Assembly (NCBI RefSeq): GCF_030846775.1
Contig: NZ_CP132910.1
Span: forward strand, 4,467,001 to 4,531,000
Direction: 5' to 3'
Length of the DNA: 64,000 nt
Source: Geothrix sp. 21YS21S-2
GTDB taxonomy: Bacteria > Acidobacteriota > Holophagae > Holophagales > Holophagaceae
How positions within the stretch are numbered: position 1 is the first letter of the stretch; every line of letters starts with the position of its first letter. The notes below the pieces were generated by a model. That model was given only the letters and a program-made list of their open reading frames with translations, made no database searches and was not told where the DNA came from. Shown here piece after piece: positions 34,256-64,000 of the stretch. The position numbers and the translations under genes were made by a program.

Positions 34256-35473
34256 ATGCGGCTTGTGATTCTGCACAGAGGGTTCCTGGCGCGGGGCGGG
34301 GCGGAGATCCTGGCCCTGGTGCAGGCCCAGGATCTCGTCAGGGCGGGGGTCGACGTGCAGGTGGTCACCTTCGCCTACGACCCGGTCCACTGGAAGGGCC
34401 CCCTGGAGGAGATCCCGGTGCACCTGGTGCCCAGGCACCATTGGACCGACCTGCCCTTCGCCCTGGACCGGAACGCCATGCTCCGGCACCGGACCAAGCG
34501 GGTGGCGGCCCTGCTCCGGACGCTGGCCCCCGACGTGGTGCTGGCCCACAACCATCCCTCCCCCGCCATGCTCGGCGCCTGCGCCGTGGACGCCCGGAAG
34601 CTCTGGTTCTGCCACGAACCCCCCCGGGGACTCTACCCCCGCCAGACCAACCGGTTCCTCACCGAGGCCAACGCCAAGGGCCTCCTTTCCGGCCACCCGG
34701 AGCTGGCCCGGGGCATGGACCGCCACCTGTCCCGGGAACGGGAGAACAAGTGGGACTGGCGGCGCGGCGTTGAATTCGACCAGGCCGGGATCGCCAAGCT
34801 GGACGGCATCGCCGCCAACAGCTCGTACACCCGCGCCAGCGTGGCCGCGGCCTACGGAGGACGCCCGGCGGAGGTGCACTACCCCGTGGTGCCCATGGAC
34901 CCCCTGCCGCACCGGTCCGGGATCAACCGGGACGGGCTCCAGGTGCTGGTCCAGACCCGCCTCGAGCTCATGAAGAACGTCGACACCGTGATCCGCGGCT
35001 TCCGGCTGGCCAGGCCCCACCTGGGCTCCCAGGCCAGGCTCCACGTGGTGGGCAAGGGCGAGGCCCTGGAGAGCCTCCAGGCCCTGGTGAAGGAGCTGGA
35101 ACTGGACGACGCGGTGACCTTCCACGGCTTCCTCTCCGACGCCGAACTGAGGGCGCTCCGCCAGTCCTGCGACGTCTTCGCCCTGGTGCCCTGGGACGAG
35201 CCGTTCGGCATGGTCTACCCTGAGGCCGCCGCGGCGGGCCTCCTCCTCATCGGCCCCGACCACGGCGGTCCCGAGGAGATCCTGGGAGGCGGCCGCTACG
35301 GCTGGTGCGTCCCGCCCCACGCCCCGGTGGCGCTGGCCGAGACCCTGTGCACCGTGTTCCGCAGCAGCGACGCCGAGGCCGACCAGATGCGCCTTAGGGC
35401 GCTGAACGCCTGCCAGGCCCGGTTCGCGCCGGACGTGGTGCTGCCAAGGTTCCGGAAATGGGTGACGGGCTAG
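34256..35473 (+). CDS. GT4-family glycosyltransferase
   Basis: A 405-residue GT-B fold transferase. RGFLARGGAEILAL is the N-terminal glycine loop, NSSYTRASVAAAY and VQTRLELMKNVDTVIRGF lead into the C-terminal nucleotide-sugar domain, with HVVGKGEALESL and the EPFGMVYPEAAAAGLLLIG segment holding the E-x7-E motif. It transfers sugars onto a lipid, polysaccharide or protein; the acceptor is unknown. The ATG at 34256 follows GGAG. The open frame upstream is not protein-like. It ends overlapping the convergent hypD-like gene by 4 nt. Confidence 0.85.
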   Translation: MRLVILHRGFLARGGAEILALVQAQDLVRAGVDVQVVTFAYDPVHWKGPLEEIPVHLVPRHHWTDLPFALDRNAMLRHRTKRVAALLRTLAPDVVLAHNHPSPAMLGACAVDARKLWFCHEPPRGLYPRQTNRFLTEANAKGLLSGHPELARGMDRHLSRERENKWDWRRGVEFDQAGIAKLDGIAANSSYTRASVAAAYGGRPAEVHYPVVPMDPLPHRSGINRDGLQVLVQTRLELMKNVDTVIRGFRLARPHLGSQARLHVVGKGEALESLQALVKELELDDAVTFHGFLSDAELRALRQSCDVFALVPWDEPFGMVYPEAAAAGLLLIGPDHGGPEEILGGGRYGWCVPPHAPVALAETLCTVFRSSDAEADQMRLRALNACQARFAPDVVLPRFRKWVTG

Positions 35474-37806
35474 AATTCCTGGTGCTCAGTCCGGTGGATG
35501 ATCTCGTTCTGCAGTTCCCGTGACAGGTCGCAGAAGTAGTCCGAGTATCCCGCCACCCGCACGATGAGGTCCCGGTGGCCGCCCGGGTCGGCCTGGGCCT
35601 CCTTCAGGGTGGCGGCGGTGACCACGTTGAACTGGACGTGGTGGCCGTCCATCTTGAAGTAGCCGCGCACCAGATGGAGGAGGCGGTCGATGCCGTCCTC
35701 CCCGGCCAGGAGGCCCGGCGTGAACTTCATGTTGAGGAGGGTGCCGCCGGTCTTCACGTGGTCCATCTTCCCGGCGGAGCGCAGGACGGCGGTGGGGCCG
35801 GACCGGTCCGCGCCCTGCACGGGGGAGATGCCCTCGGAGACGGGCTTCCCGGCCTTCCTGCCGTCGGCCGACGCCTGGCACACCTGGCCGAAGTACACGT
35901 GGCAGGTGGTGGGCAGCATCTCCAGGCGGTAGGCGCCGCCCTTGCCGTTGGGGCGGCCGTCCACGGCGTGGAAGAGGAACCGGAAGACCCGCACCATGAC
36001 GTCGTCCGCCGCCGGGTCGTCGTTGCCGTACTTCGGGGCCTTGTGGAGGAGGCGCTGGCGCAGGACCTCGCTGCCGGCGAAATCCGCGTCCAGGGCCGCG
36101 ACGAGTTCCGGCAGCGCGGACGGGCCCAGGGCCTTGATGGCGGCAAGGCTGTCGGTGACGGTGCCGATGCCCACGGCCTGGATGAAGGTGTTGTTGTACC
36201 GGGCGCCGCCCGCGTTGTAGTCCTGGCCCCGCTTGATGCAGTCGTCGGTGAGCACGGACAGGAAGGGCGCGGGCATGCGCGTGGCGTAGAGGCGCTCGAT
36301 GAGCTGGTTGCCGCGGATCTTGATGTCCAGGAAATGGCGGGTCTGGGCCTCGAAGGCGGCCATGGCCTCCTCGAAGGTGGCGGGCGTTCCCGTGCGCGGC
36401 CCCAGGGGCTTTCCGGTGCGGGCGTCCACGCCGTCGTGGAGGGCCAGCTCGAGCATCTTGGGCAGGTTGAAGTAGCCGGTGAGGATGTAGGCCTCCTTGC
36501 CGAAGGCGCCCACCTCCACGCACCCGGAGCACCCGCCCTCCCGGGCGTCCTCCAGGGACTTGCCCTGGCGCAGCTGCTCCTCCACCACCGCGTCCGCGTT
36601 GAACAGCGAAGGGAATCCGTAGCCGTTGCGGATCACCCGCAGCGCGCGCCTGAGCACGGCGTCGGGGGTCTTGCGGGAGACCTGCACGTTGCTGCTGGGC
36701 TGGAGGAGGTGCATCTCCTCGACGATCTCCAGCAGGAGCTCCGTGAGCTCGTTGCTGCCGTCGCTGCCGTCCGGCAGGAGCCCGGCAAGGTTCAGGTTGG
36801 CGAAATCGGTGTAGGTGCCGCTCTCGGCCGCCGTGACGCCCACCTTGGGGGGCGCGGTGTGGTTGTTGAACTTCACGAAGAAGCACTCCAGCAGCTCCCG
36901 CGCCGCCTCCCGGGTGAGGGTGGCGTCCTTCAGTCCGGCCCGGTAGAAGGGCAGGAGGTGCTGGTCCAGGTGCCCGGGGCTGAAGGCGTCCCAGCCGTTG
37001 AGCTCGGTGATGACGCCCTGGTGGCAGAACCAGTAGTACTGCAGCGCCTCCTGGAAATCCCGCGGCGCCTGGGCCGGCACCCGCCGGCACACCGCGGCGA
37101 TGCGCAGCAGCTCCTCCCGTCGAGCCGGGCCGCACGCCAGGGCCTGGCGTTCCGCTTCCTGCGCGTGACGCTCCGCAAGGAGGATCAGGGCGTCGCAGGA
37201 GATGCGCATGGCCTCCAGCTCGGCGCGCTTGTCGCCGGCCTCGGGGTCCCTTTCGAAATCCAGGGCCGCGTCGCTGCGCCGGATGTCCTCCTGGAAATCC
37301 CGCAGGCCCCGGGTGTAGATCTTGCCGTCCAGGACGGTGTGCCCCGGCGCCCGCTGCTCCATGAACTCCGTGAAGACCCCCGCGTCGTAGGCCTCGAGCC
37401 ACTCCGGCGGCAGCAGGGCCCAGATCTGGTCCCGCAGGCTCCGGTCCCGCCAGTAGGGGATGACGTCCCGCTCGTAGGCCTCGACCATGGCCGCGTCCAC
37501 GCGGTAGCGGGTCATGGGCCGGGAGTCCAGGATTCGCAGGTCCTCCACGGAATGGCAGGTGAGTTCGGGGAAGGTGGGCACGGCCTTGGGGCGCGGTCCG
37601 CGCTCGCCCACGATCAGTTCCCCGTCGCCGATCCACACCGTCTTGTGCCGGCAGAGGTGCTGGAAGGCCAGGGCCCGCATGACCGGGACGGCGTGCTTGC
37701 CCAGGTGCTCACGGTAGAAGGCGGTGACCAGCTGCGCCCGTTCGGGGCTCAGGGAGGGGACGGCCTCCAGGCTTTCCTGGCGGAGACGGGCGGTGCGTTC
37801 GTTCAT
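35470..37806 (-). CDS. hypD: Glycyl radical enzyme, trans-4-hydroxy-L-proline dehydratase type
   Basis: 778 residues. The C-terminal glycyl radical loop is RVAGYSDYFCDLSRELQ. The active-site thiyl cysteine and acid are in GCSGCVEVGAFGKEAY (about residue 428, CxE pattern). TGYFNLPKMLELALHDG, MPAPFLSVLTDDCIKRG, YNAGGARYNN, MLPTTCHVYFG and KTGGTLLNMKFTP track the HypD of Clostridioides difficile almost motif by motif. HypD dehydrates trans-4-hydroxyproline to pyrroline-5-carboxylate, which ProC reduces to proline. Other pyruvate formate-lyase-like activities are less likely. Preceded by its activase with a 4-nt overlap. Oxygen-sensitive chemistry implies use under anoxia. Confidence 0.88.
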   Translation of the reverse strand: MNERTARLRQESLEAVPSLSPERAQLVTAFYREHLGKHAVPVMRALAFQHLCRHKTVWIGDGELIVGERGPRPKAVPTFPELTCHSVEDLRILDSRPMTRYRVDAAMVEAYERDVIPYWRDRSLRDQIWALLPPEWLEAYDAGVFTEFMEQRAPGHTVLDGKIYTRGLRDFQEDIRRSDAALDFERDPEAGDKRAELEAMRISCDALILLAERHAQEAERQALACGPARREELLRIAAVCRRVPAQAPRDFQEALQYYWFCHQGVITELNGWDAFSPGHLDQHLLPFYRAGLKDATLTREAARELLECFFVKFNNHTAPPKVGVTAAESGTYTDFANLNLAGLLPDGSDGSNELTELLLEIVEEMHLLQPSSNVQVSRKTPDAVLRRALRVIRNGYGFPSLFNADAVVEEQLRQGKSLEDAREGGCSGCVEVGAFGKEAYILTGYFNLPKMLELALHDGVDARTGKPLGPRTGTPATFEEAMAAFEAQTRHFLDIKIRGNQLIERLYATRMPAPFLSVLTDDCIKRGQDYNAGGARYNNTFIQAVGIGTVTDSLAAIKALGPSALPELVAALDADFAGSEVLRQRLLHKAPKYGNDDPAADDVMVRVFRFLFHAVDGRPNGKGGAYRLEMLPTTCHVYFGQVCQASADGRKAGKPVSEGISPVQGADRSGPTAVLRSAGKMDHVKTGGTLLNMKFTPGLLAGEDGIDRLLHLVRGYFKMDGHHVQFNVVTAATLKEAQADPGGHRDLIVRVAGYSDYFCDLSRELQNEIIHRTEHQEF

Positions 37807-38636
37807 GACTGACCTCCGACCTTGATTCCATGGTTCCTGAAGCGCTGCGCCAGCTCCTCCATGCGCTCCGGCGCGGGGGGCCGGAGGCCGTCCAGGGCGT
37901 AGTGCCTGCCCAGGCGCGCGAACTTCGCCGAACCGGTGGCGTGGTAGGGCAGGAGGTCCACCTGCGCGCCGGGAAGGGTGGCCACGAAGCGGGCCGTGGC
38001 GTCCATGTTCGCGTCGTCGTCGTTGACCCCCGGGACCACCGGCACGCGGACCCGGAGGTTCGGGTGGGTCCTGCCCAGGGCCTCGAGCGCCGTGAGGATC
38101 TCCGCGTTGTCCACGCCCGTCCAGTGCAGGTGGCGCGGGCCGTCCATGTGCTTGAGGTCGAAGAGGACGAGGTCGGCCAGCGCGGCGGTCTCCTGCAGGC
38201 GCCCTGCGGGCAGGCCGCAGGTGTCCAGGGCCGTATGCACGCCCCGGGCCCGCAGCGCGGCCAGGGCCGCCCCCACGAACGCGGCCTGGAGCAGGGGCTC
38301 GCCGCCCGAGAATGTGACGCCCCCGCCGGACTCGTCGAAGAAGATGCGGTCCCGCAGCACCTCCTCCACCAGCTCCTCCACCTCCACGTCCCGGCCCAGC
38401 ATGCGGCGCGCGCCGGTGGGGCAGGCTTCGGCCTTGGCGTCCTCCGGGAAGGGGCCGCAGGTGCCGCACCGGATGCACAGGCCCTCCTGGAGCACCGCCT
38501 CCCGGCAGGGGGACTGGCTCTCGGGGTTGTGGCACCAGGCGCAGTCCAGGGGGCAGCCTTTCATGAACACGGTGGTGCGCAGGCCCGGGCCGTCGTGGAG
38601 GGAGAAACGCTGGATGTTGAAGACCCGTCCCTTCAC
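37803..38636 (-). CDS. Glycyl radical enzyme activase (radical SAM)
   Basis: 277 residues. The radical SAM cluster is FMKGCPLDCAWCHNPE (CxxxCxxC near residues 29-36). A ferredoxin-like insert has CIRCGTC followed by ACPTGARR, enough for one auxiliary 4Fe-4S cluster where many activases have two. VTFSGGEPLLQ is the SAM-binding GGE motif. It abstracts a hydrogen from the glycine of the adjacent hydroxyproline dehydratase. It overlaps that gene and the GntR gene by 4 nt each, so subunit balance is translationally coupled. Confidence 0.92.
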   Translation of the reverse strand: MKGRVFNIQRFSLHDGPGLRTTVFMKGCPLDCAWCHNPESQSPCREAVLQEGLCIRCGTCGPFPEDAKAEACPTGARRMLGRDVEVEELVEEVLRDRIFFDESGGGVTFSGGEPLLQAAFVGAALAALRARGVHTALDTCGLPAGRLQETAALADLVLFDLKHMDGPRHLHWTGVDNAEILTALEALGRTHPNLRVRVPVVPGVNDDDANMDATARFVATLPGAQVDLLPYHATGSAKFARLGRHYALDGLRPPAPERMEELAQRFRNHGIKVGGQS

Positions 38637-39298
38637 GCGCGCTCCTGGAAGTAGACCTGGTTGACGAAGGCCTCCTGCACCTTGAAGCCCCAGTGCACGT
38701 CCCGGAGGTAGGCCGCCGCGTCCTCGAACCGGCCCTTTTCCAGGAGGTCGACCATCTCCTCGTGCTCCCGCAGGCCGCTGTTCTCCCAGCTGGTGTGGAT
38801 CCGCTCGAACTTCCGGCTCCAGTCGTAGAGCTGCTGCTTCTTCAGGTGGACCAGGGCGGTGATGCGCCGGTTCCCCTGGCGCTCCAGGAAGAAGTCGTGG
38901 AACGCGTAGTTGTGGGCGTAGTAGGCGTGCCAGTCCCCGGCTTCCACGGCCGCGGTGGCCAGCCGGTCCAGCTCCCGGAGCCGGGCGAGGTCCCCGGGGC
39001 CCAGGGGCGCCGAGGCCAGCACGGCGCTGGCTTCCAGGGCCCCCACCAGCTGGTAGATCTCCTTGATGTCCGTGGCGTCCAGGGCCCGCACCGATACCCC
39101 CCGGCGGGGGGAGATGGTGACGAACTCCTCGGCCTCGAGCTGGATAAGGGCGTCCCGCAGCGGGGTCCGGCTCACCCCCAGTTCCGCGGCGAGGCGGTTG
39201 AGGTCCAGGAAGGCCGAGCTGGTCAGCGCGCCCGACTTGAGCTCGGCCTTCAGGTGGTCGTAGACCTGTTCCCGCAGGGACTTCGCGACGATGGCCAT
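38633..39298 (-). CDS. GntR-family (FCD) transcriptional regulator
   Basis: 221 residues. The winged-helix domain comprises LREQVYDHLKAELKSGAL, LDLNRLAAELGVSRTPLRDAL and an LEAEEFVTISPRRGVSVR wing (residues 8-75). The C-terminal helical FCD domain has YAHNYAFHDFFLERQGN with metal-binding-type Asp/His residues. The long open frame upstream belongs to another frame of the M24 gene; the ATG at 39298 lies 2 nt after that gene's stop. Position inside the hydroxyproline operon suggests it senses hydroxyproline or pyrroline-5-carboxylate and binds the inverted repeat at 40691-40709. Confidence 0.9.
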   Translation of the reverse strand: MAIVAKSLREQVYDHLKAELKSGALTSSAFLDLNRLAAELGVSRTPLRDALIQLEAEEFVTISPRRGVSVRALDATDIKEIYQLVGALEASAVLASAPLGPGDLARLRELDRLATAAVEAGDWHAYYAHNYAFHDFFLERQGNRRITALVHLKKQQLYDWSRKFERIHTSWENSGLREHEEMVDLLEKGRFEDAAAYLRDVHWGFKVQEAFVNQVYFQERA

Positions 39299-39300
39299 GG

Positions 39301-40671
39301 TCACCCCCGGGCCGCTTCGATCTCGAGGGCGGTGCGGGGCTTGGGCGGGCCCAGGCGGCGGGCTCCGGTGGCGGTCACCAGGAAGTCCTCCTCGATGCGC
39401 AGGCCGCCGAAGCCCGCGTAGGCCTCCAGGGCGCCGTAGTCGATGAAGTCCCTGAAGCGGCCCTCGGCGCGCCAGCGCTCCGTCAGCTCGGGCATGAAGT
39501 AGATGCCGGGCTCCACCGTGAGGACGAAGCCCTCCTGGAGCTCCCGGGCCAGGCGCAGGGACTTCAGGCCGAACTGGGTGCTGCGGGGCCGGCCCTCGTA
39601 GCCCACCAGGGTTTCGCCCAGATTCTCCATGTCGTGCACGTCCAGGCCCATGAGGTGCCCCAGCCCGCAGGGGAAGAAGAGGGCGTGGGCCCCCTGGTCC
39701 ACGGCGTCCTCGACGTCTCCCTTCATCAGTCCCAGGTCCTTGAGGCCGGCCGCGAGGGTCCGGCAGGCCAGGAGATGGACCTCCCTGAAGTCGATGCCCG
39801 GGCGCAGCGCCCCCTCCGCGGCCAGGAAGGCCCCGAGGACCAGGTCGTGGATGTCCCGCTGGCGCGCGGTGAACGCGCGGTCCACGGGGAAGGTGCTGGA
39901 CAGGTCCCCGGCGTAGTGGCCCGCCGTCTCCGCGCCCGCGTCCAGGAGGAAGAGCTGGCCGCTCTCCAGGGTGTTGCCGTAGTGGTGGTTGTGCAGCACG
40001 CCGCCCCGGACGGTGGCGATGACGGGGAAGGAGAGCCCGCCGCCGGCGGCCAGGGCGATGTCGGTGACGCGGCCCATGATCTCGGCCTCCCGCATGCCGG
40101 GGCGGGCCATGGCCATGGCCTCCAGGTGCATGCGCACCGAGGTGTCCACGGCGCGTTCGATCTCCTCGACCTCGGCGGGGGACTTCCGGATGCGCAGTTC
40201 CGCCACGGCGCGGATGAAGGCCGCCGAGGGCTGGGGGGCGCGGGGGCCCAGGCCCTCGAGGAGGCGCAGGTGGTGTTCGGCCCGGTAGGGAGGCAGGATG
40301 TGCACGGGACGCCCGGAGGCCTGGGCCCGGCAGAGGTGCTCCTTCAGGGCCGCTGCGGGGGCGGTGAAGGCGATGCCGGCGGCGTCGGCGAGGTCCCGCA
40401 CCAGGGGTTGGGGCCCCATCCACACGATGTCGTCCAGGGTGCAGTCGTCCCCGAACAGGGTGGCGCGGTCCTCGTCCAGGTCCAGGATGGCCGCGAAGCC
40501 CGGGCGGTCCACGCCCGTGAAATAGAGGAAGGTGCTGTCCTGCCGGAACGGGAAGGCGTTGTCGGCGTAGTTCATGGGGCTCTCCTCGTTGCCGAGGAGG
40601 AGCAGGATGCCCGAGGGAATCTGCGCCTTGAGGCGGTTGCGGCGCTCCGCGCAGGGAAGGGAACCGGGCAT
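39301..40671 (-). CDS. M24 Xaa-Pro aminopeptidase/prolidase
   Basis: 456 residues. An N-terminal aminopeptidase P domain (GILLLLGNEESPMNY, FRQDSTFLYFTGVDRPGFAA) precedes the pita-bread catalytic domain, with metal ligands in LLDAGAETAGHYAGDLSSTF, GLGHLMGLDVHD, TVEPGIYF and GGLRIEEDF. It removes residues ahead of proline or splits X-Pro dipeptides. As first gene of the hydroxyproline operon it can free (hydroxy)proline from collagen-like peptides. The ATG at 40671 has GGAG 7 nt upstream. Farther upstream residues overlap the operator and are not protein-like. Confidence 0.92.
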   Translation of the reverse strand: MPGSLPCAERRNRLKAQIPSGILLLLGNEESPMNYADNAFPFRQDSTFLYFTGVDRPGFAAILDLDEDRATLFGDDCTLDDIVWMGPQPLVRDLADAAGIAFTAPAAALKEHLCRAQASGRPVHILPPYRAEHHLRLLEGLGPRAPQPSAAFIRAVAELRIRKSPAEVEEIERAVDTSVRMHLEAMAMARPGMREAEIMGRVTDIALAAGGGLSFPVIATVRGGVLHNHHYGNTLESGQLFLLDAGAETAGHYAGDLSSTFPVDRAFTARQRDIHDLVLGAFLAAEGALRPGIDFREVHLLACRTLAAGLKDLGLMKGDVEDAVDQGAHALFFPCGLGHLMGLDVHDMENLGETLVGYEGRPRSTQFGLKSLRLARELQEGFVLTVEPGIYFMPELTERWRAEGRFRDFIDYGALEAYAGFGGLRIEEDFLVTATGARRLGPPKPRTALEIEAARG

Positions 40672-40690
40672 GGGGGACTCCAGAGGAAAG

Positions 40691-40709
40691 CTGATATCTA
40701 ATATATCAG
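40691..40709. promoter_or_regulatory. Operator of the hydroxyproline operon
   Basis: CTGATAT and ATATCAG form a perfect 7-bp inverted repeat around CTAAT, 19 bp in total, 20 nt upstream of the M24 gene start. It is AT-rich in a GC-rich setting and is the size expected for an FCD-GntR dimer. The adjacent GntR is the natural candidate; binding is inferred. Confidence 0.65.
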
Positions 40710-40737
40710 ATTTCAAATCGCTCCCTGCACGGAACCC

Positions 40738-40767
40738 TTGACATCGCCATTGCACCCTGTTTCTAGT
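40738..40767 (+). promoter_or_regulatory. Promoter of the ilv leader transcript
   Basis: A perfect TTGACA (40738-40743) is followed 18 bp later by TCTAGT (40762-40767). Transcription would begin near 40774, almost at the leader ATG (40776), so the leader peptide mRNA is probably leaderless or nearly so. Confidence 0.6.
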
Positions 40768-40775
40768 TGAAATCA

Positions 40776-40913
40776 ATGATGACCATGTCCCGCACCTTCG
40801 CCCCCGCCGCCGGCCACGCCGGTTTGGCCGGCGTCCGCGCGCTCGGGACCGTCCTCGCCCTTAGCAACCTGTCGGTGGTCGTAATTATTGACCACGGGGC
40901 GGGGGCCATCTAG
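40776..40913 (+). CDS. Branched-chain amino-acid leader peptide (attenuator control)
   Basis: A 45-codon ORF ending TAG at 40911-40913. Its last third reads LGTVLALSNLSVVVIIDHGAG, with three Val and two Ile codons in a row at 40875-40889 and several Leu codons just before, resembling the E. coli ilv leader run SVVVIII. GGGGCGG at 40896-40902 can pair with CCGCCCC at 40937-40943 (antiterminator), which competes with the terminator at 40939-40964. A ribosome stalled on Val/Ile codons would favour read-through to lysR-ilvA; one reaching the stop would cover 40896-40902. Alternative starts are ATG 40779 and 40785. Confidence 0.8.
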   Translation: MMTMSRTFAPAAGHAGLAGVRALGTVLALSNLSVVVIIDHGAGAI

Positions 40914-40938
40914 CCAGCAGAACCAGTTCACCCCTTCC

Positions 40939-40969
40939 GCCCCGCACCCCAAAGGTCGCGGGGCTTTTT
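40939..40969 (+). terminator. Attenuator terminator before lysR-ilvA
   Basis: GCCCCGCACC (40939-40948) pairs with GGT-C-GCGGGGC (40954-40964, one bulged C) around a 5-nt loop, followed by TTTTT (40965-40969). It ends 16 nt before the LysR start, so its only evident use is premature termination of the leader transcript. Confidence 0.85.
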
Positions 40970-40985
40970 CGTTCTGGAGTCCTCC

Positions 40986-41882
40986 ATGAACCTGTCCGAT
41001 CTCGAGATCCTGGTGTGCCTCGCCGAGGAGGGGAGCTTCTCCCGCGTCGCCGAGAAGCTCAACCGCTCCCAGCCCGCCGTGAGCCAGGCCATCCGGCGCC
41101 TGGAGGAGACCTTCGAGGTGCAGCTCCTGGACCGCACCTCCCGGCGCGCGGTGCTCACGGGGGCCGGCTCGGCGCTGGTGTCCTACGCCGGGCGCATGCT
41201 CCACCTGTGGGACGGGGCGGTCAAGACCATGGCGGAGCGCCGCAACGGCAAGCGCGGGGTGCTCCGCCTTGCGGCCAACGGGCTCCTGTGCGACTACCTC
41301 CTGCCGTCCCTCATCGAGGGCTTCCGTCTGGACCACCCGCACGCCAAGATCGAGCTGGTGCAGTGTCCGGCCTCCGGGATCCCCACGGCCCTCCTGGACC
41401 AGGACCTGGATTTCGGCTTCCTCTCCTATGCGCCCAGCCACCGGGACCTGGAGACCCAGGCCCTCTTCCGGGACGACCTGGTGCTGGCGGTGCCCCCGCA
41501 GCACCCCTTCGCGCGCTTCAGCCAGGTGAGCTTCCAGCAGATGGCGGGGGAGGCCTTCCTGGCCCACTCGGCCGCCTCGCCCAGCCGCAAGCGCCTGGAC
41601 TACCAGTTCGGACAGGAAGGGGTCGCGCTCCGGGTCGCCATGGAGCTGCCCAGCCTCGAGTCCATCAAGCGCTTCGTCGCCGCCGGCGCCGGCATCGCCA
41701 TCCTGCCCCGGCTCTGTCTTGAGCGGGAGCTGAAGGACGGCAGCCTCGTCGCGCCGCGCATGAAGTCCCAGTCCATCGGCCGTGACATCCGGGTGGCCTG
41801 GCGCCGCACCCGGGGCGCCTCGCCCCTGGCCGGCGACTTCCTCGACCAGACGGCCCGGAGGTTCAAATGCAGGGCAGCCTAG
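40986..41882 (+). CDS. LysR-family regulator cotranscribed with ilvA
   Basis: 298 residues. The helix-turn-helix is LEILVCLAEEGSFSRVAEKL with NRSQPAVSQAIRRLE as recognition helix. The effector-binding domain follows from residue ~90 (GVLRLAANGLLCDYLLPSL, FVAAGAGIAILPRLCLE). It sits between the Val/Ile attenuator and ilvA and overlaps ilvA by 16 nt, so it is itself controlled by branched-chain amino-acid supply. It may act like IlvY on other ilv genes; the target is unknown. Confidence 0.88.
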   Translation: MNLSDLEILVCLAEEGSFSRVAEKLNRSQPAVSQAIRRLEETFEVQLLDRTSRRAVLTGAGSALVSYAGRMLHLWDGAVKTMAERRNGKRGVLRLAANGLLCDYLLPSLIEGFRLDHPHAKIELVQCPASGIPTALLDQDLDFGFLSYAPSHRDLETQALFRDDLVLAVPPQHPFARFSQVSFQQMAGEAFLAHSAASPSRKRLDYQFGQEGVALRVAMELPSLESIKRFVAAGAGIAILPRLCLERELKDGSLVAPRMKSQSIGRDIRVAWRRTRGASPLAGDFLDQTARRFKCRAA

Positions 41883-63431: not shown

Positions 63432-64000
63432 GTGCGCCAGGCCAAGCCTGGGCGAGGAGGATGGATGACCTAAGACAGACTGAAACCTCGCAATGGAGCC
63501 CAGCGGGGAGGCAGCAAGCCCCGCCCGGCAAAGCTGGCCAGCAGCCGGAACCGAGTCTTGCGTGGGGAAGGGCGACCGACCTCGTGAAGCGTAGACAGGG
63601 AGTGCATGGGCCGTGTGATGGAGCCCCGAAAGCATCCAACCGTGGGAGTCGACGCCGTTCTCCGATCGGAAGACAGCACCCGAAGGTCGCAAGGGCCTGA
63701 CCGTAGGGTCCCACCGGGGTCATAGAGCAGGGCACGTGCACAGGGGTTCCCCAGGAACCTGGGAGATCCAGCCATCTCCGCCAACAACCCAGTGGTGAGG
63801 GAAGCCACGTAAAACGAACCCAGGCTCGCCGGGGGGTGCCGCCCCCGGCGGGAGCGAACAGCCGGCACAGGGCGGTACCGCAAACTGAAGGAAACGAAGG
63901 AGCGCGGGAGGGGTGGCCGGAAGTCGGAGCAGCTCATAGTAGCGATGATCGCGGGGAACCGGGCCGCCGGGACCCGCTGGAGCCAAGGAGCTGCCGGATC
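63432..64000 (+). mobile_element. Group II intron, 5' part (continues past window end)
   Basis: GTGCGCC at 63432 fits the GTGYG 5' end of group II introns. The following 500 nt are dense in stem-loops, show no real gene and contain stretches familiar from intron domain I (AAGGGCGACCGACCTCGTG, GCAAGGGCCTGACCG, CTCATAGTAGCGATGATC). The intron-encoded protein begins near the window end. Insertion directly 3' of a large palindrome is the habit of bacterial class C introns, which prefer stem-loops or terminators; the class itself cannot be fixed here. The 3' end and domains V/VI are outside. Confidence 0.72.
63945..64000 (+). CDS. Group II intron-encoded protein, N-terminus only
   Basis: The frame RKSEQLIVAMIAGNRAAGT matches the usual N-terminal lead-in of intron reverse transcriptase/maturase proteins. 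The first ATG in frame is at 63945. The frame is open back to a stop near 63810, so an alternative upstream start is possible. Only about 18 residues are inside the window, so reverse transcriptase motifs cannot be checked. Confidence 0.5.
   Translation, partial: MIAGNRAAGTRWSQGAAG

Follow-up and report, generated by a model that had tools for sequence, protein, structure and literature searches.

A probable Val/Ile leader-peptide attenuator precedes a lysR-ilvA operon in the Holophagaceae (Acidobacteriota)

Organisation of the lysR-ilvA locus

The window analysed here, a stretch of 64 kb (bases 4,467,001-4,531,000), belongs to a single-contig genome of 5.25 Mb from the Holophagaceae, a family of the Acidobacteriota that comprises Geothrix and other genera. 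Within it, a gene for a LysR-family regulator is followed by ilvA, whose start overlaps the end of lysR by 16 nt. IlvA is of the biosynthetic form and carries two ACT-like C-terminal regulatory domains (Pfam, NCBIfam). The features that lie between the upstream promoter and the end of ilvA are collected in Table 1, where the relatives named are drawn from the six genomes of the window's genus that were compared (G000-G005, G000 being the window's own genome).

A sequence-only reading of this DNA had proposed that a TTGACA promoter, a 45-codon open reading frame with a VVVII run, an antiterminator and a T-tailed terminator lie upstream of a LysR gene. The TTGACA box was found where it had been placed, accompanied by a weak -10 region, and the open reading frame was recovered together with its run of Val and Ile codons. 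The proposed arms of the antiterminator, 40896-40902 (GGGGCGG) and 40937-40943 (CCGCCCC), are exactly complementary, the terminator is present with the limits given for it, and LysR is the first downstream gene in G000, G002 and G005.

Divergent from these genes, on the minus strand, is an operon (35470-40671) encoding trans-4-hydroxy-L-proline dehydratase (NF043068, 1150 bits, cut-off 1100), an activase, a GntR-FCD regulator and an Xaa-Pro aminopeptidase; from its gene content, it looks like a system for the anaerobic use of (hydroxy)proline peptides. Close to the end of the window, a group II intron domain was matched (RF02005, 148.6 bits, 63515-63729).

Table 1. Features of the lysR-ilvA leader and operon (positions within the window)
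Feature	Position	Strand	Basis
-35 box, TTGACA	40738-40743	+	Sequence; TTGAC[A/C] in G002, G005 and G003 at equal spacing to the leader ATG
Weak -10 region (TCTAGT / TAGTTG)	40762-40769	+	Ends 6 nt upstream of the ATG; leaderless start predicted
Leader peptide ORF, 45 codons + TAG, MMTMSRTFAPAAGHAGLAGVRALGTVLALSNLSVVVIIDHGAGAI	40776-40913	+	Kept in G002 and G005; C-terminal part in G003
Control codons GTG GTC GTA ATT ATT (Val-Val-Val-Ile-Ile)	40875-40889	+	Sequence, codon usage
Pause/protector hairpin, GTGGTC 40875-40880 with GACCAC 40890-40895	40875-40895	+	Fold; four-sequence alignment
Antiterminator, 40895-40903 with 40936-40944	40895-40944	+	Pairing in four-sequence alignment
Intrinsic terminator, stem-loop 40939-40964 and T-tract TTTTT 40965-40969	40939-40969	+	Sequence, folding, alignment
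lysR Shine-Dalgarno, GGAG	40976-40979	+	Sequence
lysR, LysR-family regulator, 298 aa, ATG at 40986	40986-41882	+	Pfam and NCBIfam
ilvA, biosynthetic threonine ammonia-lyase, 507 aa	41867-43390	+	TIGR01124, 763.8 bits, cut-off 411

The leader peptide and its control codons

The leader open reading frame begins ATG ATG ACC, and the 45-residue peptide ends ...LSVVVIIDHGAGAI directly before the stop codon. Two of its control codons are rare in this 69% GC genome: GTA accounts for 1.6% of the Val codons and ATT for 3.5% of the Ile codons. Codon bias of this kind is known from attenuation leaders, where rarity is only part of the explanation (PMC1183508).

The chance expectation was estimated with a detector for a short open reading frame with 5 or more Val/Ile/Leu among six codons close to its end, or 4 consecutive Val/Ile, and a terminator just behind it. 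Dinucleotide-shuffled sequence gave a background of 0.067 matches per 64 kb. When 484 kb of the window's own genome were scanned (20 stretches of 20 kb, L222-L241, together with L096 and the window), there was one match, the present lysR-ilvA site; the window and 14 related loci (~230 kb) gave four, each just upstream of ilv genes. Generic promoter and terminator scanners returned no matches at the lysR-ilvA leader because the -10 region is poor, the stem is bulged and their patterns are too strict. Searches of the leader region against Rfam gave no riboswitch or T-box match at the gathering cut-off, all sRNA matches there fell far below cut-off, and the leader as a whole folded with an energy ordinary for its GC content (z = -1.46).

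Start of the leader mRNA

In G000, G002 and G005, the end of the -10 region is separated from the leader ATG by 6, 5 and 6 nt, and at the related loci L041, L042 and L210 by 7, 5 and 6 nt; for most Geothrix leaders this distance is 19-27 nt. No Shine-Dalgarno sequence precedes the leader ATG in the window, and in G002 and G005 a GGAG is found just 3 nt ahead of the ATG, which is too near for a normal Shine-Dalgarno. Across 244 genes sampled from L222-L241, L096 and the window, TAnnnT hexamers peak at positions ending 6-7 nt before the ATG (13 of 244 genes, against a background of ~1-3 per position), and a normal Shine-Dalgarno peak is also seen. A regular minority of the mRNAs of this acidobacterium thus seems to be leaderless. 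Taken together, the placement of the leader ATG 6 nt past the -10 region and the genome-wide signal suggest that the leader mRNA is probably leaderless.

Terminator, antiterminator and the modelled switch

The terminator stem-loop reads GCCCCGCACC-ccaaa-GGTcGCGGGGC (40939-40964). The core of the antiterminator can be extended by pairing 40895-40903 (region 2) with 40936-40944 (region 3), including one G-U pair. Region 3 takes up the 5' arm of the terminator, so that the two structures exclude each other. Region 2 thereby ends at 40903, shortly ahead of the stop codon at 40911, and the distance from stop codon to terminator is 22-25 nt in four genomes.

In an alignment of four leaders (G000, G002, G005 and G003), both the terminator and the antiterminator were paired in 100% of cells (36/36 for the antiterminator) and the pause hairpin in 95.8%, compared with 30-64% in the control where the partner was slid. 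Pairs changed on both sides were absent among these four leaders because the sequences are too similar. RNAalifold run on 19 sequences recovered the terminator but yielded few double changes, the spacer being rich in indels and misaligned by MAFFT.

With a ribosome modelled at the stop codon, the terminator formed with a probability of 0.98-1.0. With the ribosome stalled on the control codons and RNA present up to region 3, the probability of region 2:3 pairing was 0.85-0.87 in the window group, and the same model gave ~0.5 or more for the leaders of the wider family in all cases except G001. At equilibrium the terminator was more stable than the antiterminator in G000, G002 and G005, indicating that the switch must be kinetic. 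Region 2:3 pairing in the window, taken alone, did not exceed that of shuffles of equal composition (20% were as good); the sole sequence significant by itself was that of G003, whose region 2:3 energy was matched by 0 of 300 shuffles. Since shuffles of region 2 pair nearly as well, the antiterminator is backed by its conservation and placement and not by its energy.

Conservation of the leader and origin of the arrangement

LysR relatives were located in G002 (93%), G005 (91%) and G003 (70%). G002 and G005 have the gene order leader-terminator-lysR-ilvA and have kept the leader, the VVVII run, the antiterminator and the terminator, supporting the earlier interpretation as a Val/Ile attenuator. 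All of these elements are also present in G003, where ilvE is added to give leader-terminator-ilvE-lysR-ilvA. Among G000, G002 and G005, the C-terminal half of the leader peptide (GTVLAL[S/N]NLSVVVIIDHGAGAI up to the stop codon) is almost constant, its last 22 residues being nearly identical, and the first half is variable; the G003 leader ends ...LLGVVVVIIGGGAGGI at its stop codon.

At about 24 further loci of the Holophagaceae, ilvA is immediately preceded by a terminator and a leader that is shorter and mainly Ile-coded, and no lysR intervenes; this holds for most of the ilvA loci in Geothrix and other genera of the family. These leaders are typically ~17-24 codons long and are followed by a C-rich/G-rich terminator; examples, each given up to the stop codon, are MSHAGFALIPAAIAIIRSREGA, MSFVLRPHIAIAIIIRSAGGLPTR and MYCCPVFISMISIPHGG, with endings such as ...AIAIIxSREGA. 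One member of the window's own genus, G001, has the ilvA leader MTVLPPAAASARQGRTIRIRIPG. The terminators of the two groups are alike (CCCCGCACC..AAAGGTCGCGGGG in the window group and CCCCCCGCACCGCAAGGTCGGGGGG in the family ilvA group). The automatic table listed no recognisable leader upstream of ilvA in L194, L198, L203 and L209.

Placement of lysR within an attenuated ilvA operon was found only in the window's sublineage. The many family members with an Ile-rich leader directly before ilvA, without lysR between, argue that an Ile-sensing ilvA attenuator is most likely ancestral in the Holophagaceae. On the most parsimonious reading, lysR (and in G003 also ilvE) would have come to lie inside the operon in the window's sublineage, where the control run became Val-Val-Val-Ile-Ile. 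The earlier interpretation is refined in two respects: the attenuator most likely belonged to ilvA ancestrally, and the leader mRNA appears to be leaderless.

Two further variants were noted among these loci. At L039 (genome G030), an insertion of ~230 nt whose ends form an inverted repeat (GAGGTCATAACAAAACCC...GGGTTTTGTTATGACCTC) separates the terminator from ilvA, and L202 holds a scar-like remnant of an insertion of this type.

Proposed mechanism

The defining features of a ribosome-mediated branched-chain amino-acid attenuator that sequence can reveal are all found at this locus, and the downstream genes fit the amino acids sensed (ilvA, joined by ilvE in G003). It is therefore very probable that the leader is a transcription attenuator of this type and that it controls the lysR-ilvA operon. 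Sequence and comparison establish the elements, their conservation and the gene order; from these we infer the scheme below, from the start site and leader translation to termination, the Val/Ile response and the consequence of LysR control.

Transcription would start at the leader ATG or within ~3 nt of it, and the leader would be translated without a Shine-Dalgarno sequence. When charged Val- and Ile-tRNA are ample, the ribosome would clear GTG-GTC-GTA-ATT-ATT, reach the stop codon and mask region 2, such that the terminator forms and lysR-ilvA is switched off. With too little of either tRNA, the ribosome would stall within the run, and region 2 would pair with region 3 before region 4 exists; no terminator would then form and RNA polymerase would continue into lysR and ilvA. 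If the leader is not translated, the hairpin at 40875-40895 could hold part of region 2, again allowing the terminator to form. Because lysR (or ilvE-lysR) is located between the attenuator and ilvA, the amount of LysR would become dependent on amino-acid supply, and lysR mRNA is expected to respond to limitation for Val or Ile.

Alternative explanations

One alternative is that the terminator acts constitutively at the end of a short transcript, for example of an sRNA or a small protein gene, with lysR-ilvA being expressed by read-through or from another promoter and the Val/Ile run sensing nothing. The observation that the antiterminator of the single sequence pairs no better than shuffles is consistent with this model. 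However, the rare-codon Val/Ile run, the position of the stop codon and the terminator are conserved as a set in four genomes whose leader peptides differ in their first half, an Ile-rich leader and terminator recur before ilvA in the ~24 other family members, and the sRNA matches are too far under the Rfam cut-off to favour an sRNA, making a constitutive terminator very unlikely. It is more unlikely still that the leader is bifunctional, combining attenuation with a peptide or a released leader RNA that acts in trans. In its favour, the 45 residues exceed what attenuation needs, the C-terminal 22 residues are nearly identical in G000, G002 and G005, and there is a precedent in the Sinorhizobium trp leader peptide, which is reported to act in trans (PMC7298713). 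Conservation is nevertheless limited to the part that encodes RNA regions 1-2, so attenuation alone explains it, and most Geothrix leaders are merely 17-23 aa long.

Least probable of the alternatives is that the operon is regulated mainly by LysR acting at the promoter and that the attenuator has a residual role, with a conserved palindrome at 40690-40710 (GCTGATATCTAATATATCAGA) serving as the LysR site. This 21-bp palindrome precedes the predicted start by ~75 nt, close to where LysR sites are usually located. Near-identical copies exist in G003, G004 and G001, yet these precede gntR in G003 and G004 and an Xaa-Pro aminopeptidase-gntR pair in G001, without lysR, and no copy precedes the ilvE-lysR-ilvA operon in G003. 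Because it accompanies the divergent gntR genes, the palindrome was rejected as a LysR site; its copies before gntR and Xaa-Pro aminopeptidase genes indicate that it is likely an operator of the divergent GntR regulator. Attenuation of lysR-ilvA through Val and Ile codons is the reading we retain.

LysR paralogues and a possible relay

In a phylogenetic tree, the window's LysR groups as sister to the LysR encoded behind ilvBNC within this genus (support 98/97), and both paralogues fall within a wider clade of LysR proteins from other genera, several of them encoded divergently beside leuA. No leader was seen upstream of either ilvBNC-lysR2 or the leu operon (leuA) in the window's genome, and lysR-ilvA is consequently the only attenuated branched-chain locus found there. 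The 12-bp near-palindrome AATAGRTYTATT is present in exactly two copies in this genome, before leuA and before ilvB (G000:C1:3963983-3963994 and 3975961-3975972, within L096), and is unspecific at one mismatch. Its position makes it a candidate operator for LysR regulators of branched-chain amino-acid genes. As an operator of the lysR-ilvA operon it was rejected, being absent from that promoter within 3 mismatches.

These findings would be compatible with a relay, to which we give low credence: charging of Val- and Ile-tRNA would set the level of LysR, which would act in trans on the unattenuated ilvBNC-lysR2 and leuABC, possibly via AATAGRTYTATT. Were this true, the reach of a cis-acting attenuator would be extended to other branched-chain operons through LysR as the first cistron.

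Leaders rich in branched-chain residues were also observed at other operons. In G001 (L098, upstream of the gene at G001:C1:4090769), a Leu/Ile leader, MFSLNVLNLHLGLLLISGAGED, precedes a leuA-like gene that is followed by ilvBNC-lysR. Further such leaders with terminators lie before ilvD/ilvB-type operons at L099:7290-7415, L107:6288-6413, L103:8768-8845 and L105:8211-8342 (minus strand), loci that belong to Geothrix and other Holophagaceae genera.

Comparison with known attenuators

According to a 2010 survey, predicted attenuators in the Acidobacteria were almost without assigned function, and leader-peptide systems were unproven outside the Proteobacteria and Actinobacteria, apart from one reported case in the Firmicutes (PMC2965389). 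Our literature search, with most subscription journals outside its reach, found no published description of a lysR-ilvA attenuator. The present site and its ~24 relatives constitute a clear leader-peptide family in the Acidobacteriota, a phylum where such systems have hardly been described. Moreover, they suggest that an ancestral ilvA attenuator changed its cargo (from ilvA to ilvE-lysR-ilvA or lysR-ilvA) alongside its control codons (from Ile-rich to Val-Val-Val-Ile-Ile).

The ilvBNC operon of Corynebacterium glutamicum has the leader MTIIRLVVVTARRLP, and its transcription begins one nucleotide away from the ATG of that leader (PMC11857589, citing Morbach 2000). It shares with lysR-ilvA a Val/Ile run and a terminator and antiterminator before a branched-chain operon, and its leaderless or nearly leaderless leader resembles the start predicted for lysR-ilvA, but it belongs to an Actinobacterium, its leader has 15 codons instead of 45, and enzymes come first where here a regulator precedes ilvA. 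The present locus is therefore a probable second setting, after Corynebacterium, for leaderless translation in attenuation.

The ilvGMEDA and ilvBN operons of E. coli and Salmonella likewise use mixed branched-chain control codons and the logic of regions 1-4, and control ilvA (and ilvE, as in G003); in contrast to lysR-ilvA, they are not known to contain a regulator, and their leaders use a Shine-Dalgarno sequence. The comparison is one of arrangement, sequence similarity not being claimed. In E. coli, ilvY lies outside the ilv operon, beside ilvC. The ilvGMEDA and ilvBN leaders are among listed attenuators (PMC1183508).

In Mycobacterium tuberculosis, ilvB1NC is preceded by an upstream open reading frame rich in branched-chain residues, with LVVI codons, a terminator and the same attenuation logic; it differs in having experimental support, in its genes and in its phylum (PMC13236596). 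The same article mentions the upstream-ORF attenuator of mycobacterial whiB7 (PMC13236596). There, too, a transcription regulator gene is under attenuation. The whiB7 attenuator senses general translation stress, not one amino acid, and is not known to control a biosynthetic enzyme in its operon. Unlike whiB7, the lysR-ilvA leader is predicted to sense specific amino acids and has the biosynthetic ilvA in its operon. The mechanism proposed for lysR-ilvA is thus a known one, and what is new is the phylum and the regulator as first gene; the distinctions from known branched-chain attenuators are the phylum, a probable leaderless start, for which Corynebacterium provides a precedent, and the regulator as first cistron.
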